This document shows positions 23,262 to 34,513 of a stretch of DNA of 64,000 nt, piece after piece. The notes beneath the pieces were generated by a model that saw only the letters and a list, made by a program, of their open reading frames with translations, was not told the origin of the DNA and searched no databases. Position 1 is the stretch's first letter. Every line of letters begins with the position of its first letter. The DNA lies in the NCBI RefSeq assembly GCF_006716355.1, contig NZ_VFOW01000001.1, forward strand, positions 4,464,001 to 4,528,000, given 5' to 3'. Both the position numbers and the translations under genes were made by a program. Source of the DNA: Stackebrandtia endophytica. Lineage in GTDB: Bacteria; Actinomycetota; Actinomycetes; Mycobacteriales; Micromonosporaceae.

Positions 23262-24770
23262 GTGCACTCCTCGGCTGACGCCACCCCCGCCAACTCGGCC
23301 AGTCTCAAACGCATCACCGCTCTAGCGCTGCCCGCGCTGGTGGTGCTCGCCGCCGAGCCTATGTACATCCTGGTCGACACCGCCGTAGTCGGTCACCTAG
23401 GCCGAATTCCGCTGGCCGCGTTGGCCCTGGGCGGCGGCGTCATGTCCGTCGCCGGCTGGATCGGCGTCGTCCTCGCCTACGGAACCACCGGTCGAGTCGC
23501 CCGACGCTTCGGCGCAGGACAACGCACCGAAGCCGTCGCCGAAGGCGTCCAAGGGTCCTGGCTGGCGATCATCGGCGGCGTCATCATGATCGCACTCATC
23601 CAACTGTTCGCCGGACCCCTCACCCGAGCCCTCGCCGGCGACAGCGTCGAAGGACAGGCCATCGCCGCCGACGCCGAATCCTGGCTGCGCATCGCCGTGT
23701 TCGGAGTGCCCTTCCTCCTCCTGGCCATGGCAGGCCAAGGCTGGATGCGAGGCGTCCAAGACACCAAACGCCCCATGTACATAGTGCTGTCCGCTTTCAT
23801 CGGCTCCGCCGTGCTGGCGCCCATCCTCGTGTACCCGGTCGGCATGGGACTCAACGGATCCGCCGTCGCCAACGTGATCGCCCAAATGATCTCCGGCGGC
23901 CTGTTCATCCGAGCCCTCGCCACCGAAGGCGTCTCACTCAAACCCCGCTGGGGCGTCGTCCGACGGCAACTGTCCCTCAGCCGCGACCTCGTCATCCGCG
24001 GCGGCGCCTTCCAACTCTGCTTCATCTCAGCAGCCGCGGTCGCCGCCCGATTCGGAGCCGCCGCACTCGCCGCCCACCAAATCGGCCTCCAACTCTGGTT
24101 CTTCGCCGCATTGGCCCTAGACGCGGTGGCCATCGCCGCCCAAGCCCTGATCGGTGCCGAACTAGGCGGTGGCGACATCGACCGCGCCAAAACCACCGCA
24201 CGCCGCATCGGCTGGATCGGCCTGGGATACGGCACGGTCTTCGCGGTCCTAGTCGCCGCAGGTGCGCCCTTCCTACCCGGCCTCTTCTCACCCGACCCGG
24301 CGGTCGGACAACAGGCGACCGCCCTATGGCCCTGGTTCATCGGACTGCTCCCCATAGCCGGAGTCGTATTCGCCCTCGACGGAGTCTTCATCGGAGCCGG
24401 CGACGTCGCCTTCATGCGCAACATGACCGTCTTGGCCGCCCTGATCGGCTTTCTGCCTTTGATCTGGCTGACCTACGCCTTCGACGGCGGCCTCGGCGGC
24501 ATCTGGGCCGGACTCGCCGCCTTCATGACGGTCCGACTGATATCCCTGTTGTGGCGGATGAAGTCCCAGAAATGGGCAATCGCCGGCGCCGAACGCTTAT
24601 TCGCACTGCCCAGGCACGTGTCTGGCGGCGTCGTGGACCGGCTTGCCTACCAAAACCGTAGGCGGCGCCGGTCCACGTCTTGCCATACGCGCACCTGGAC
24701 GGCGCGAATCCTGGGTGGACTGGGCTTCGCCTCGCGGCGTCGCAGTCTTCCTTGCCTACCAAGACCGTAG
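23262..24770 (+). CDS. MATE-family efflux transporter with a repeat-encoded C-terminal tail
   Basis: The protein has about twelve membrane segments and the MATE/DinF pattern (VDTAVVGHLGRIPLAALALGG early; AAHQIGLQLWFFAALALDAVAIAAQALIG in the second half). It would export organic cations or drugs using an ion gradient. At 502 residues it is ~55 longer than expected. The normal-looking end is around KWAIAGAERL (about residue 447); from ~24600 the frame enters the palindromic array and stops at a TAG inside its second unit. The Arg/Pro-rich tail is probably not functional. Confidence 0.85.
   Translation: MHSSADATPANSASLKRITALALPALVVLAAEPMYILVDTAVVGHLGRIPLAALALGGGVMSVAGWIGVVLAYGTTGRVARRFGAGQRTEAVAEGVQGSWLAIIGGVIMIALIQLFAGPLTRALAGDSVEGQAIAADAESWLRIAVFGVPFLLLAMAGQGWMRGVQDTKRPMYIVLSAFIGSAVLAPILVYPVGMGLNGSAVANVIAQMISGGLFIRALATEGVSLKPRWGVVRRQLSLSRDLVIRGGAFQLCFISAAAVAARFGAAALAAHQIGLQLWFFAALALDAVAIAAQALIGAELGGGDIDRAKTTARRIGWIGLGYGTVFAVLVAAGAPFLPGLFSPDPAVGQQATALWPWFIGLLPIAGVVFALDGVFIGAGDVAFMRNMTVLAALIGFLPLIWLTYAFDGGLGGIWAGLAAFMTVRLISLLWRMKSQKWAIAGAERLFALPRHVSGGVVDRLAYQNRRRRRSTSCHTRTWTARILGGLGFASRRRSLPCLPRP
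24632..24677. repeat. Best-preserved hairpin of the array (type A unit)
   Basis: CGTGGACCGGC (24632-24642) pairs with GCCGGTCCACG (24667-24677), and inside them GCCTAC (24645-24650) pairs with GTAGGC (24658-24663) around a seven-base loop CAAAACC. It gives 17 paired bases in all. Confidence 0.85.
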
Positions 24771-25125
24771 GCGGCGGAAGCCCGCGTCTGGCGACGCGAG
24801 GCCTGGACGGCGCGAATGTCATTCGCACTGCCCAGGCACGTGTCTGGCGGCGCCGCTCGCGGGCTTGCCTACCAAAACCGTAGGCGGCGCCGGTCCACGT
24901 CTTGCCATACGCGCACCTGGACGGCGCGAATCCGCGGTTGGCCCGGGCAGGTGTCTGGCGGCGTCGTGGCCCGGCTTGCCTACCAAGACCGTAGGCGGCG
25001 CCGGTCCACGTCTTGCCATACGCGCACCTGGGCGGCGCGAACCTCGGGTGGCCCAGGCTTGGCCTCGCGGCGTCGCGGTCTTCCTTGCCTACCAAAACCG
25101 TAGGCGGCGGAAGCCCGCGTCTGGC

Positions 25126-26515: not shown

Positions 26516-26781
26516 CGCTGGTCTCCTCACCAGTGGTGTCGCTGCGGTCCCGCCTGGTCGTTCCAGCACGGTGAGATCAGGTGCCGATCGTGTGGGGGCA
26601 CCGGTCACCAGCATTCCAGGTATTGGGACGGCTGGGGGAGTTCGAGTTTTCAGGTAATGCCAAAGTGGGACACCGGGCGATGAGGGGAGCGAGCCGGATC
26701 GGGTTGAGCTGGGGCGAGCAACCCATTCCGGTCACTCGTTCGCGTGGCAACACCCGCCTGTTTCCCAGATTTCGGGAAAAC

Positions 26782-26811
26782 TTAGGCAACATTCGGGAGC
26801 AGCGTTAGTGT
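26782..26811 (+). promoter_or_regulatory. Promoter of the leader/40-residue ORF unit
   Basis: TTAGGC (26782-26787) and TAGTGT (26806-26811, fitting the actinobacterial TAnnnT -10) are 18 bases apart. Transcription would start at 26818-26820, on the leader ATG, making the leader a leaderless message. Confidence 0.45.
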
Positions 26812-26819
26812 GGACTGCG

Positions 26820-26861
26820 ATGCGTTTCGTAATCATCCTTCTCTGCCGCGGCGGGACCTGA
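26820..26861 (+). CDS. 13-residue leader peptide MRFVIILLCRGGT (branched-chain-rich)
   Basis: ATG 26820 to TGA 26859-26861 encodes a 13-residue peptide with five branched-chain codons in a row (GTA ATC ATC CTT CTC). It ends in the left arm of a strong stem-loop, as ribosome-controlled attenuator leaders do. No ribosome-binding site precedes it, in keeping with leaderless translation from the promoter just upstream. The expected ilv or leu gene is not downstream. It may sense valine, isoleucine or leucine charging. Confidence 0.5.
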   Translation: MRFVIILLCRGGT

Positions 26862-26932
26862 ACCAACAGGCCGACTCCCCGCCGCGGTGTTGACGCGTCG
26901 GTCCGCTGTCAATCGAGACAGCGCGGGGAGTC
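26846..26932 (+). promoter_or_regulatory. Two mutually exclusive stem-loops (attenuator-like)
   Basis: Stem 1 pairs CCGCGGCGGG (26846-26855) with CCCGCCGCGG (26878-26887). Stem 2 pairs GACTCCCC (26873-26880) with GGGGAGTC (26925-26932) and encloses a smaller hairpin, CGCTGTC/GACAGCG (26904-26923). The right arm of stem 1 and left arm of stem 2 share 26878-26880, so full formation of one disturbs the other. A ribosome stalled on the leader codons would cover the left arm of stem 1. Confidence 0.55.
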
Positions 26933-27013
26933 CATCGAAGTACCGCGAACTGCGTATCTCTTCCTCAGGCTCTCCACGAATTCACGCCTAACTCAACCCA
27001 TGAGGAGAGCATC

Positions 27014-27136
27014 ATGTCCACAGTGACCATGACGTCGGCCGCCCGTACCCGCATCAGCCACCGGAAGCGGACCGACGACGACGCCCGCGAGGAGGCCCGT
27101 CGGGCCCTGCAGGAATCGATGAACCTGCGGCAGTAG
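27014..27136 (+). CDS. 40-residue charged peptide
   Basis: ATG 27014 is preceded by GAGGAG with six bases' spacing, the strongest ribosome-binding site in this stretch. The product (40 residues) begins MSTVTMTSAARTRISHRKR and continues as an alternating acidic and basic, probably helical segment with EEARRALQES. It has no signal, membrane helix or Cys. A terminator hairpin follows 28 bases after the stop. I do not recognise it. Its own promoter, attenuator-like leader, ribosome-binding site and terminator argue it is real. Confidence 0.6.
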   Translation: MSTVTMTSAARTRISHRKRTDDDAREEARRALQESMNLRQ

Positions 27137-27164
27137 TCCGTGCGGGTATCACTCCGCGAACTGT

Positions 27165-27210
27165 CCGGACGTGATCGCGAGCCGAGATGACGGCCCGCGG
27201 TCACGTCCGG
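27165..27210. terminator. Bidirectional hairpin terminator between the 40-residue ORF and the MFS gene
   Basis: CCGGACGTGATCGCG (27165-27179) pairs with CGCGGTCACGTCCGG (27196-27210) with one mismatch. It overlaps the last bases of the opposing MFS gene. Confidence 0.7.
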
Positions 27211-28571
27211 TGTGGAGTCACACCGGACGCCCGGCTCAGTGCCAGTACCGCCAGCACCAGCGGAATACTGAAGCACACCAGGTAGCCGATGGTGCCACCC
27301 ATCGGCAGCAACGCCGCGAACAGCGACGCCGTGGCGGTCAGCAGCACCGTCGTGAAGAGCGTTTCGGACAATTTCAGCGCTGCGGTGTTGTGTCCCCGGG
27401 TGTTCACATCGGACAGGTCGAGCACGAGCGCCGACAATGCCGGATACGCCAAACCCATCCCCAGCCCACACAGCAGCCAGCCGGCGAACCCGATCGCGAC
27501 CGGGACCTCCCCGATCACCAGCAGGGTCACCAGGGCGACGCCGGCCGCCAGTGAACCGGTGCCTCGCCGTATCAGTTGCACGCGGCTCCAGGTGAGCCGG
27601 TCGCGTCCCTGCCACCAGGAACCCAGTGCCCAGGAACAGGCGCCAAGCGACACCCCGATACCCACGATGACCGGGGACAGGTTTCGCTGCTCGGTCAACA
27701 ACAGTGGGACGAAGACCTCGGTGCCCGCGAAGGTCGCCGAGGTCAAACCCCGCAGTGCCACCACGGTGGGAAGCCCGCGCGCCCCGGAGAACGTTCCCCG
27801 GGGCAGCAGACGCGGCACCACGACGACCAGCGTGACGATCGCGGGGATGATCAGCAGCACCGCCGTCGCGCCGGACTGCTGACCCGCCAACTGAAGTACA
27901 CCCGCCGCCGCGGCGGCCGCGGCCGCCCATCGGATCAGCCGTGCGGCGTCGGGCCGGACCGGTTTGTCGGTGGAGCCGGCGCGGTTGACGGTCGTGCGCA
28001 TCAGCAGCGCGGCCGGTATCGCCAGTGCCGGAACCGATAGGAACACCCAGCGCCAGTCGAGGTGGTCGACGACGAGACCGGTGATGGACGGACCCACGAC
28101 GGCGGGGACGACCCAGGCCGTCGCAAAGGACGCGAACACCTTGGGCCGTAGTTCCTCCGGGTACACCTGAGCGACCACTATGTACATGGTCACGCCGATC
28201 AGCCCGCCGCCGAACCCCTGGACCACCCGCCCGGCGATCAGCATGAGCATCGACACCGCCGAACCGGCCACGACCAGGCCCAGACTGAACAGTGTGATGC
28301 CGGTCCACATGGGCCATTTCGGGCCTCTGGCGTCGTTCCATACACCGGCGATGACGGTGCACAGCACGCTCGCGGCGAACGCGCCACCGAAGGCCAGCCC
28401 GTAGAGTGCGACCCCGTCGAGTTCGACGGCGGCGGTGGGCATCGCGGTGGCCACCGCCAGATATACGAACGAGATGAGCGACATGATCGCGACCATGCCG
28501 ACGGTCGTGGCGCGCCAGCGGCGATCCAGCAGGCCGACGGGACGGGTTCGTGGGACCGGTGGCGTGGACAT
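27201..28571 (-). CDS. Major facilitator superfamily drug exporter
   Basis: The ~456-residue protein has about 12-14 membrane helices. The DHA-type features include a motif-A-like NDARGPKWPMW between helices 2 and 3 and VVQGFGGGLIGVTMY in helix 4. It most resembles multidrug exporters driven by proton exchange. ATG 28571 (MSTPPV, AGGA upstream) is preferred over a start seven codons earlier that would lie closer to the operator palindrome. The start region carries a MerR-type promoter, so expression is probably induced by a small molecule. Confidence 0.88.
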   Translation of the reverse strand: MSTPPVPRTRPVGLLDRRWRATTVGMVAIMSLISFVYLAVATAMPTAAVELDGVALYGLAFGGAFAASVLCTVIAGVWNDARGPKWPMWTGITLFSLGLVVAGSAVSMLMLIAGRVVQGFGGGLIGVTMYIVVAQVYPEELRPKVFASFATAWVVPAVVGPSITGLVVDHLDWRWVFLSVPALAIPAALLMRTTVNRAGSTDKPVRPDAARLIRWAAAAAAAAGVLQLAGQQSGATAVLLIIPAIVTLVVVVPRLLPRGTFSGARGLPTVVALRGLTSATFAGTEVFVPLLLTEQRNLSPVIVGIGVSLGACSWALGSWWQGRDRLTWSRVQLIRRGTGSLAAGVALVTLLVIGEVPVAIGFAGWLLCGLGMGLAYPALSALVLDLSDVNTRGHNTAALKLSETLFTTVLLTATASLFAALLPMGGTIGYLVCFSIPLVLAVLALSRASGVTPHRT

Positions 28572-32144: not shown

Positions 32145-32152
32145 CGTTACCG

Positions 32153-32224
32153 CTGGGGTACCAGGACTCGAACCTAGACTAACTGGGCCAGAACCAGTCG
32201 GGCTGCCAATTACCCCATACCCCA
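32153..32224 (-). tRNA. tRNA-Gln (anticodon CTG)
   Basis: The 72-base cloverleaf starts TGGGGTA and ends TACCCCA plus discriminator G. The D arm is GGGGTAATTGGC, the anticodon loop holds CTG flanked by TT and GC, and the T arm is the invariant GGTTCGAGTCC. The CCA end is not encoded at 32150-32152. A terminator follows. Confidence 0.93.
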
Positions 32225-32355: not shown

Positions 32356-33054
32356 TCACCGCCCCGACAGACGTTGACCGGCCCGAATCACGGCCATCGC
32401 CAGCCGGTCACCGGGTCGTCGTCCCAGGCGTTCGATGGGGCCCGACACCGAGATGGCCGCCACGACGCGACCGGTGCGGTCGCGGACCGGCGCCGACACC
32501 GACGCCACCCCGGCCTCGCGTTCGGCGACACTCTGCGCGTAGCCGCGTCGGCGTACCTCGGTGAGGGTCTGGGCGCTGAAACGACAGCGGGGCAACAGCG
32601 GCAGTACCGCCTCCGGTGGCTCCCAGGCCAGCAGGACCTGCGCGCCGGAACCGGCCGACATCGGTAGAACCGAACCCACCGGAACGGTGTCCCGAAGTCC
32701 GCTGCCGCGTTCGGCCGCGGCGACACACACCCGCTCGTCGGCCCTGCGGCGATACAACTGCGCGCTCTCGCCGGATTGGTCCCGCAGCAGTTTCAGGATC
32801 GGATCGGCGGCGGCCAGCAGAACGTCGGGCGCCGCGTCGGCCAGTTCCGCCAGGCGGGGGCCGGGACGCCACCGATTCTCGTGGTCCCGAATGAGGAGTC
32901 GGTGTGTCTCCAGGGCCTGCGCCAGCCGGTGCGCGGTGGCGCGGGGCAATCCCGAACGTTCGACGAGCTCAGCAAGGCTCGCACCCTCCATACACGAGGT
33001 GAGAATCAACATGGCCTTGTCGAGAACACCCACACCGCTGATACTGTTTCCCAT
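32356..33054 (-). CDS. ndgR: IclR-family regulator of leucine biosynthesis (NdgR/LtbR type)
   Basis: The 232-residue regulator has an N-terminal winged helix (VLDKAMLILTSCMEGASLAELVERSGLPRATAHRLAQAL) and a C-terminal IclR effector domain ending in a VSAPVRDRTGRVVAAISVSG block. In actinobacteria the IclR protein divergent from leuCD (NdgR in Streptomyces, LtbR in Corynebacterium) controls leucine and other amino-acid genes, and here it is placed exactly so, 52 bases from leuC. ATG 33054 has GGGAGG about 12 bases upstream, longer than ideal. Confidence 0.88.
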   Translation of the reverse strand: MGNSISGVGVLDKAMLILTSCMEGASLAELVERSGLPRATAHRLAQALETHRLLIRDHENRWRPGPRLAELADAAPDVLLAAADPILKLLRDQSGESAQLYRRRADERVCVAAAERGSGLRDTVPVGSVLPMSAGSGAQVLLAWEPPEAVLPLLPRCRFSAQTLTEVRRRGYAQSVAEREAGVASVSAPVRDRTGRVVAAISVSGPIERLGRRPGDRLAMAVIRAGQRLSGR

Positions 33055-33106
33055 GAAATGAAATGTACCTCCCAAAATGCGGGAAGTCTAGGAAGGGTGG
33101 GCAGTA

Positions 33107-34513
33107 ATGTCGACGACGGCCCCGGCGACCATGGCAGAAAAGGTGTGGCGGGCACACACCGTGCGAACCCGTGACGGTGAACCCGATCTGCTGTACATCG
33201 ACCTCCACCTGATTCACGAGGTCACCAGCCCTCAGGCGTTCGATGGACTGCGAGCGGCGGGGCGGAAGGTGCGTCGCACCGACCTCACGATCGCCACCGA
33301 GGACCACAACACTCCGACCGACAATCTGCTGACGATCAGCGACCCGGTCTCCCGCACCCAGATCGAGGCCCTGCGCGCCAACTGCGCCGAGTTCGGGGTC
33401 CGTCTGCATCCGCTCGGTGACGACGAACAGGGCGTTGTCCACGTTGTGGGACCACAGCTGGGACTGACCCAGCCGGGGATGACCGTGGTGTGCGGTGACT
33501 CGCACACCAGCACGCACGGTGCGTTCGGCGCGTTGGCATTCGGCATCGGAACCAGCGAGGTCGAACACGTCCTGGCGACGCAGACCCTGCCGCAGCAACG
33601 GCCCAAGACCATGGCGGTCACGGTGGACGGTCGGTTGCCCGACGGAGTGTCGGCCAAGGACCTCATCCTCGCCATCATCGCCAAGGCCGGTACCGGTGGC
33701 GGTCGCGGCCACATCGTCGAATACCGCGGCGAGGCCATTCGTGCGCTGTCGATGGAAGCCCGGATGACGGTGTGCAACATGTCCATCGAGTGGGGTGCCA
33801 AGGCCGGGATGATCGCCCCCGACGAGACCACCTTCGCCTACCTGAAGGGCCGCGACCATGCACCCACCGGACAGCGGTGGGACGAGGCGGTTTCCGCCTG
33901 GCGAGAGTTGGTCACCGACGAGGACGCCCGGTTCGACGCCGAGATCCACATTGACGCCTCCGAGCTGGCCCCGTTCGTCACCTGGGGAACCAACCCCGCG
34001 CAGGGCGCGCCGTTGAGCGCGTCGGTGCCCGATCCGCTCGGCATCACCGATCCCGTGGCGCGGGCGACCGCGCAGCGTGCGCTGGAGTACATGGATCTCA
34101 AGCCCGGTACCGCGTTGCGTGACGTCGGCATCGACGTGGTGTTCCTGGGGTCGTGCACCAACGGCCGGATCGAGGACCTCCGTGCCGCCGCGGACGTGTT
34201 GCGCGACCGCAGTGTCGCCGATGGACTGCGGATGCTGGTGGTTCCCGGGTCGGCTCGCGTACGCGCGCAGGCCGAATCGGAGGGACTGCACGAGGTCTTC
34301 ACGCGGGCGGGTGCGGAGTGGCGGTTCGCCGGTTGCTCCATGTGCCTTGGGATGAACGCCGACCAGCTGTCGCCCGGGGCTCGGGCCGCCTCGACCTCCA
34401 ACCGCAACTTCGAAGGGCGCCAGGGACGCGGTGGGCGGACCCACCTGGTCTCACCCGAAGTCGCCGCCGCCACCGCTGTGGTCGGTCGGCTGGCGGCCCC
34501 CGCCGACCTGTGA
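33107..34513 (+). CDS. leuC: 3-isopropylmalate dehydratase large subunit
   Basis: LeuC, with LeuD, isomerises 2-isopropylmalate to 3-isopropylmalate using a [4Fe-4S] cluster. The 468-residue protein has the aconitase-family blocks [36 protein letters not shown], and three cluster Cys: one in [10 protein letters not shown] and two in [12 protein letters not shown] late [20 protein letters not shown] closes the active site. It is divergent from the IclR regulator and 50 bases before leuD. Confidence 0.97.

Follow-up and report, generated by a model that had tools for sequence, protein, structure and literature searches.

The window, a stretch of 64,000 nucleotides from a 5.66 Mb genome of the genus Stackebrandtia, contains at positions 26782 to 27210 a compact unit made up of a short leader ORF, a structured spacer and the gene for a 40-residue peptide. 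The next ORF recorded after the peptide is a convergent MFS gene. The features of the unit, in window coordinates, are as follows.

26806..26811, + strand: -10 promoter box TAGTGT, eight bases ahead of the ATG at 26820; a leaderless start is expected on or next to this ATG
26820..26861, + strand: leader ORF MRFVIILLCRGGT, closed by a stop codon, with the conserved V-x-I-L codons GTA (26829-26831), ATC and CTT (26838-26840)
26846..26855, + strand: 5' strand of P1 (stem A), CCGCGGCGGG; 95.9% of cells paired in 17 sequences
26869..26875, + strand: 5' strand of P2, GGCCGAC, in the P1 loop; 98.3% of cells paired, with both partners changed in three pairs
26873..26882, + strand: 5' strand of stem B, GACTCCCCGC, which competes with P1 and P2
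26878..26887, + strand: 3' strand of P1 (stem A), CCCGCCGCGG, partner of 26846-26855
26897..26903, + strand: 3' strand of P2, GTCGGTC, partner of 26869-26875; 7 bp in the window copy
26904..26923, + strand: hairpin CGCTGTC/GACAGCG, located between the two strands of stem B and variable in both arms within Stackebrandtia (by eye)
26923..26932, + strand: 3' strand of stem B, GCGGGGAGTC; alternative partners are the leader codons (6-8 bp) and the anti-Shine-Dalgarno sequence (7-8 bp)
26968..26975, + strand: anti-Shine-Dalgarno (anti-SD) sequence GGCTCTCC, invariant in all five Stackebrandtia spacers
27004..27010, + strand: Shine-Dalgarno (SD) sequence GGAGAGC, which pairs with the anti-SD
27014..27136, + strand: 40-residue micropeptide MSTVTMTSAARTRISHRKRTDDDAREEARRALQESMNLRQ, with a conserved C-terminal part, a helix model and coding constraint
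27165..27210, no strand assigned: strong hairpin without a T-run between convergent genes, a possible transcript 3' end, from fold energy and a terminator scan

A sequence-only reading made earlier had described a leaderless branched-chain leader, stems that exclude each other and a peptide as the only gene of the unit. The sequence comparisons support this description and show the peptide to be conserved. The five branched-chain codons that it counted are present in the leader (GTA ATC ATC CTT CTC). Its TAnnnT promoter and leaderless start agree with TAGTGT before the ATG and with the finding of such a box 5-11 nt ahead of an in-frame start in each of the 28 micropeptide-linked leaders, as against 65 of 5,600 random positions. 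When the leader and the ORF were searched for in relatives, both were found in all five Stackebrandtia genomes, along with the two stems and the anti-SD, and in other genera and families as well. The five Stackebrandtia leaders are MRFVIILLCRGGT, MRYVFILPSRGGT, MRFVQILPSRGGT, MRFVLILPSRGGT and MRFVVILPSRGGT. We thus regard it as confirmed that the window holds a conserved unit. The ribosome-binding site called excellent is indeed present as GGAGAGC, but it can be closed by the anti-SD. The terminator assigned to the unit did not hold up: the hairpin at 27165-27210, which extends into the end of the convergent MFS gene and lies in a region (27137-27215) folding at -46 kcal/mol, has no T-run, and a terminator scan of 26600-27300 found no intrinsic terminator with a U-run, a feature of classical transcription attenuators. 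No similar plasmid DNA was found.

By sequence comparison, the leader and stems in the window are a paralogue of the published LEU element, known before leuA in Actinobacteria (Seliverstov et al. 2005). The accessible text of that paper (PMC1262725) describes a leader whose leucine codons form a base stem with the leuA SD, together with a pseudoknot. The conserved two-helix pseudoknot expected of a LEU element is present in the window as P1 and P2, likened to the published one through its description in that text. An order-level relative (L014) has the same leader and stem directly ahead of leuA, and the genome of the window itself contains a second, diverged LEU copy (MRRVLLLGCRGGAR, closed by a stop codon) before leuA, the latter identified with TIGR00970 above cut-off. 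Since the target of the window element is the micropeptide and leuA has a LEU element of its own, we treat the window element as a paralogous branch and not as a leuA leader. The refuting outcome named in the sequence-only reading, a relic whose leader stands before leuA in relatives with the ORF absent, did not come about: such a leader does precede leuA, but these genomes carry it as a paralogue distinct from the window copy, which keeps its peptide in all five Stackebrandtia genomes and in several genera and families.

A covariance model, R1, was based on ten copies, five linked to the peptide and five to leuA. It matches the window leader at 4490820-4490897 of the genome contig with 89.7 bits, the window copy (G000) being itself one of the ten sequences in the model. 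R1 detected a LEU element in 294 of 300 family genomes and two copies in each of the five Stackebrandtia genomes. An order-wide search with the first profile gave matches in 81 of 397 genomes, only three of them, all weak, outside the family. A match was also seen in an Anaerolineae metagenome-assembled genome (L053). At Rfam gathering thresholds neither the window leader nor the leuA-linked copies gave a match; three Rfam matches to the leader by E-value were weak and unrelated, and were rejected.

The window element and the LEU elements before leuA, as the accessible parts of PMC1262725 and, for S. lividans leuL1, PMC8079986 present them, share a leader ORF that ends in an RGG-type stretch within the first stem, branched-chain codons just ahead of this stretch, the P1/P2 pseudoknot and the absence of a T-run terminator. 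The leuL1 leader, MRFGLLLLSCRGEGL, is described there on a leaderless transcript without a typical Rho-independent terminator (PMC8079986). The codons of the window branch, however, are V-x-I-L rather than L-L-L, and its target is a micropeptide (with leuB next in other families) rather than leuA; in Stackebrandtia, moreover, the SD-like strand at 26923-26932 would act as an internal relay to a separate anti-SD.

The micropeptide ORF is 29-40 codons long in the five Stackebrandtia genomes. Over the last 17 codons pN/pS is 0.29 in 11 family sequences. A single helix was predicted for residues 8-39 with a pLDDT of 94.5 from one sequence, although a single-sequence model of a short helix carries little information on function. 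The best Pfam match, with an E value of 0.15, was below cut-off, NCBIfam gave no match for the four micropeptides tested, and PHROGs gave a single weak match (E 0.036) to a family of unknown function. No description of a LEU-controlled micropeptide was found in the titles and abstract openings of the papers listed in searches of an open-access collection. The comparisons support the view that a known RNA element has a new branch coupled to a micropeptide, and of the latter we found no description.

Distribution within the family was assessed in 58 chosen genomes of 44 genera. The peptide profile matched in 49 of these genomes and 35 of the genera at E <= 0.1, and in 45 genomes at E <= 0.001 (counted by hand); R1 matched in 54. 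In 15 genomes (G000-G004, G026, G030, G434, G437, G444, G445, G451, G459, G460, G470) a LEU element lies ahead of the peptide, at a distance of up to about 500 nt and in the same orientation; G435, in which the peptide was recognised by eye, brings the number to 16. For 30 of the 45 genomes with the peptide at E <= 0.001, no LEU element was detected ahead of it under the strict filters of the R1 search. A second conserved UTR motif (CCAGGGUC-GACC-GACCCGGGC ... UCCGGYRAYCCCGGA) was seen upstream of the peptide in one genus (g4), which we take to be Micromonospora, and in other genera (L016-L043, L089, L066, L015). RNAalifold applied to 14 of these sequences gave two hairpins with little covariation, and the micropeptide UTRs with this motif had no Rfam match above curated cut-offs. 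Three genomes (G437, G026, G444) have the LEU element and the second motif together. Because so many peptide genomes lack a detected LEU element, the other motif occurs there and some genomes carry both, the LEU element before the peptide seems to have been lost, or gained, repeatedly.

LEU elements apart from a recognised micropeptide were also observed. Those of G429 and G016 (L138, L128) have GRIL or DKIL leaders; by eye, a MATE-like ORF follows about 900 nt on in G429 and a TruB-like ORF in G016. Four genomes (G603, G504, G399, G024; L130, L132, L133, L137) have an extra LEU element before another leuA-like gene, as judged by motif; LSRHGGA and LRRHGGA are among the leader variants there.

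At the level of the class, the family profile matched in 8 of 296 genomes, of which five belong to other families. A profile made from four outside-family peptides then matched in 22 of 394 genomes and found the window peptide among them at E 1.1e-4. Of the 21 other class loci, 12 have a LEU element ahead of the peptide according to R1 (E 4e-6 to 4e-14) and nine have none there. One match, G658 (L164), was treated as false, being inside a long ORF with none of four pathway genes nearby, and was kept in the denominators of the 21 loci. The pathway genes were sought by tblastn in about 1.5 kb on either side, with query proteins that NCBIfam identified above cut-off as 3-isopropylmalate dehydrogenase, phosphoglycerate dehydrogenase, ketol-acid reductoisomerase and dihydroxy-acid dehydratase. 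We found leuB downstream in 15 loci, serA upstream in 13, ilvC upstream in four and ilvD downstream in one; at least one of the four lies beside the micropeptide in 19 of 21 loci, the others being G801 and G658. In the 12 loci with a LEU element, serA or ilvC is upstream in 11 and leuB downstream in 10. In G848 leuB starts about 1.4 kb beyond the peptide. These neighbours tie the peptide to branched-chain metabolism more strongly than the sequence-only reading could have known. A LEU element was present in all 22 genomes searched (20 of the 21 class genomes, without G658, plus G040 and G049). The 16 additional LEU elements inspected in these genomes all precede leuA by sequence motif; some weaker additional matches lie outside this set of 16.

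These neighbourhoods bear on what the peptide itself does. The micropeptide ORF might be a mere second regulatory ORF that relays the LEU element to leuB and that in Stackebrandtia is a stranded leftover without a function of its own, as could be expected from the frequent position of leuB downstream and from G623, where the ORF overlaps the leuB start. We consider this unlikely, however, since the peptide is under constraint in the family, where no leuB stands beside the loci inspected, and is found by its profile in most of the genera sampled; the gene that follows it is a MATE transporter in several family genera and the convergent MFS gene in the window. Conservation of the micropeptide away from leuB in the family, together with the ilv and leu linkage elsewhere, argues for a trans-acting part in branched-chain metabolism, and the peptide probably acts in trans as a small helix on a partner of the branched-chain pathway. 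The results point to a micropeptide that lies outside the curated families searched and is linked, in several families of actinobacteria, to genes for the synthesis of valine, isoleucine and leucine. In its fullest form, to which we give an even chance, the proposal is that this undescribed actinomycete micropeptide (about 20-46 residues with a conserved ARRALQESMDRR core) is a dedicated member of the branched-chain regulon, that its duplicated LEU element was retuned from leucine to valine, isoleucine and leucine, and that the peptide works in trans, on the pathway or on translation, under shortage of these amino acids.

The leader codons of the two LEU branches were compared in 28 peptide-linked and 52 leuA-linked leaders, leaving out the orphan elements of G429 and G016. 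All 80 leaders have CTT at one common position, and MRFVIILLCRGGT has a second Leu codon too. An Ile codon directly precedes this CTT in 25 of 28 peptide-linked leaders but in 1 of 52 leuA-linked ones, and GTA occurs within the four codons before it in 26 of 28 as against 3 of 52. Conversely, Leu-Leu precedes CTT in 47 of the 52 leuA-linked leaders and in none of the 28 peptide-linked ones. Fisher p is below 1e-14 for each contrast, although the leaders are related and the p-values overstate independence. In the micropeptide branch, then, V-x-I-L replaces the leucine run of the LEU element, with GTA and CTT invariant in 16 of 16 family peptide-linked members. Both are rare codons: in 10 window genes GTA accounts for 6.0% of the codons for Val and CTT for 3.8% of those for Leu. 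The leader of M. tuberculosis ilvB1NC, for which attenuation is reported, has LVVI codons with GUA as a regulatory codon, according to the accessible text of PMC13236596. The simplest reading is that the leuA branch would sense leucine and the micropeptide branch valine, isoleucine and leucine.

P1 and P2 were evaluated in an alignment of 17 family elements (16 peptide-linked, with G445 and G470 included, and the orphan of G429). Standard pairs occupy 96.9% of cells, compared with a shuffled mean of 92.7, and the covariation score is 0.231 compared with 0.152; neither value was reached in any of 500 shuffles. Both partners had changed in five pairs, where the shuffles averaged 1.7; further standard pair types numbered 11, not above the shuffles (mean 12.5; 500 of 500 as high). 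Sliding the partners along each other reduced pairing to 33-63% of cells. All 12 elements from other families have a P2 of 7-11 bp, with differing sequences and a shuffle p <= 0.05 in eight. In the family the single-sequence p for P2 was <= 0.05 in 8 of 15 peptide-linked and 4 of 36 leuA-linked elements, the per-sequence script giving no P1 for G445 and a wrong stem for G470. Because these per-sequence values are modest, it is the covariation that carries the claim for P2. The two stems of the sequence-only reading, P1 and stem B with ten pairs each, do share bases, but the overlap is 26878-26882 and not 26878-26880. Stem B has 8-10 contiguous bp in all five Stackebrandtia genomes; among 10 other family elements scored it has 7 bp in G030, G460 and G470 (the last discounted, as it rests on a misplaced P1) and 4-6 bp in the remaining seven. 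The structure kept in nearly all elements examined is the pseudoknot, which the earlier reading lacked, and a long stem B is confined to Stackebrandtia. Variants of the hairpin at 26904-26923 in this genus include CACCGTC/GACGGTG and CGCCGTT/AACGGCG, noted by eye and not counted with a tool.

Comparison establishes the parts of the unit, their conservation, a codon signature that follows the target gene, a covarying pseudoknot, coding constraint on the peptide and, elsewhere, linkage to leuB and ilv genes. On these grounds we think it probable that the window contains a second, specialised LEU element, which would sense all three branched-chain amino acids through the ribosome and drive a micropeptide of that regulon. 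The position of this element before the peptide gene suggests that the micropeptide would be made under shortage of valine, isoleucine or leucine. The 2005 paper did not settle how the LEU element works. In its accessible text it favours a regulatory protein and cites mutations of leader codons that were without effect at S. coelicolor ilvB and others at leuA that behaved unlike classical attenuation (PMC1262725). The element would then be a binding site for a protein or another ligand, a role that the conserved pseudoknot could serve, and the leader ORF would not be an amino-acid sensor. We find this rather improbable for the window branch, since a binding site would need neither the replacement of Leu by Val and Ile codons according to the target gene nor the retention of the rare GTA, and the TAnnnT box is kept at leaderless distance in every peptide-linked leader. 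Two LEU branches in one genome, with codons that track the target, are a natural experiment that argues for codon reading. That the element is a decayed or chance duplicate of the leuA leader with no present function, as the few branched-chain codons of some Stackebrandtia leaders might suggest (VxIL with Pro and Ser at positions 8 and 9 in four of five), is very improbable, being contradicted by the invariance of GTA and CTT, the covariation, the promoter box and the association across families.

The anti-SD, the 8-mer GGCTCTCC, is the longest word common to the five Stackebrandtia spacers; 3,000 mononucleotide shuffles never gave more than 5. It pairs with the SD at 7 of 7 positions in four of these genomes and at 5 of 7 in G001. 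The SD-like strand at 26923-26932 has three possible partners: the 5' strand of stem B, the leader codons and the anti-SD. In the five leuA copies examined, the leader codons can pair with the leuA SD in a base stem of 7-9 bp; in the peptide-linked copies of Stackebrandtia their pairing amounts to 6-8 bp with the strand 26923-26932 and at most 6 bp with the true SD. The free-energy minimum of the window copy has P1 and the anti-SD held by this strand (-73.5 kcal/mol, versus -68.2 for stem B with anti-SD:SD), and G003 has the same minimum; even in this fold the SD region is partly paired locally. Other folds are favoured in G001, G002 and G004, the most stable fold varying by species. SD accessibility was computed from partition functions with a ribosome mask of about 26 nt and no pseudoknots. 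In the window the expected pattern did not emerge, the six SD-region bases having an unpaired probability of 0.34-0.35 at all five ribosome positions. Of 15 elements with the ribosome stalled at GTA (G444 left out), eight gained at least 0.1 in unpaired probability, G003 lost 0.19 and six shifted by less than 0.1. We infer the direction of the switch and the level of control, since this test is flat in the window copy and mixed elsewhere.

In the proposed mechanism, transcription would begin on the leader ATG and the ribosome would read GTA-x-ATY-CTT just before the pseudoknot. If charged Val-, Ile- or Leu-tRNA is scarce, the ribosome would stall on the V-x-I-L codons and melt the stem of leader codons with the SD-like strand, leaving P1 and P2 intact. 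The freed strand 26923-26932 could then pair with the anti-SD, releasing the SD so that the micropeptide would be made. If charged tRNA is plentiful, the ribosome would enter P1, stem B would form and the anti-SD would close the SD. Only a ribosome stalled on V-x-I-L would break the leader-strand stem and yet keep P1. Control would be at the level of translation, perhaps with Rho. The stem B relay would be specific to Stackebrandtia, and other genera would have to use a variant. In ermC-type translation attenuation a stalled leader ribosome causes strands to re-pair and frees the SD; the proposed switch resembles it in this respect, but its expected signal is a shortage of charged tRNA rather than an antibiotic. 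With the M. tuberculosis ilvB1NC attenuator and Streptomyces ilvL, as given in the accessible text of PMC13236596 and PMC8079986, the window unit shares a short Val/Leu/Ile leader ORF and mutually exclusive structures, whereas those systems have a U-rich terminator before acetolactate synthase genes and the window has a micropeptide gene and no T-run.

Several features near the unit were also recorded. An IclR-family regulator (32356-33075, - strand) is divergent from an ORF taken for leuC (33107-34513, + strand), an arrangement that recalls LtbR/NdgR. The window has a tRNA-Gln gene at 32152-32224, and in two Stackebrandtia genomes a tRNA gene adjoins the micropeptide unit (L005 at 1654-1725, by Rfam; L004 at about 1297-1370, by eye). 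Imperfect 111-bp tandem repeats, 4.5 copies at 24608-25109, lie around the 3' end of the MATE gene at 23262-24770.
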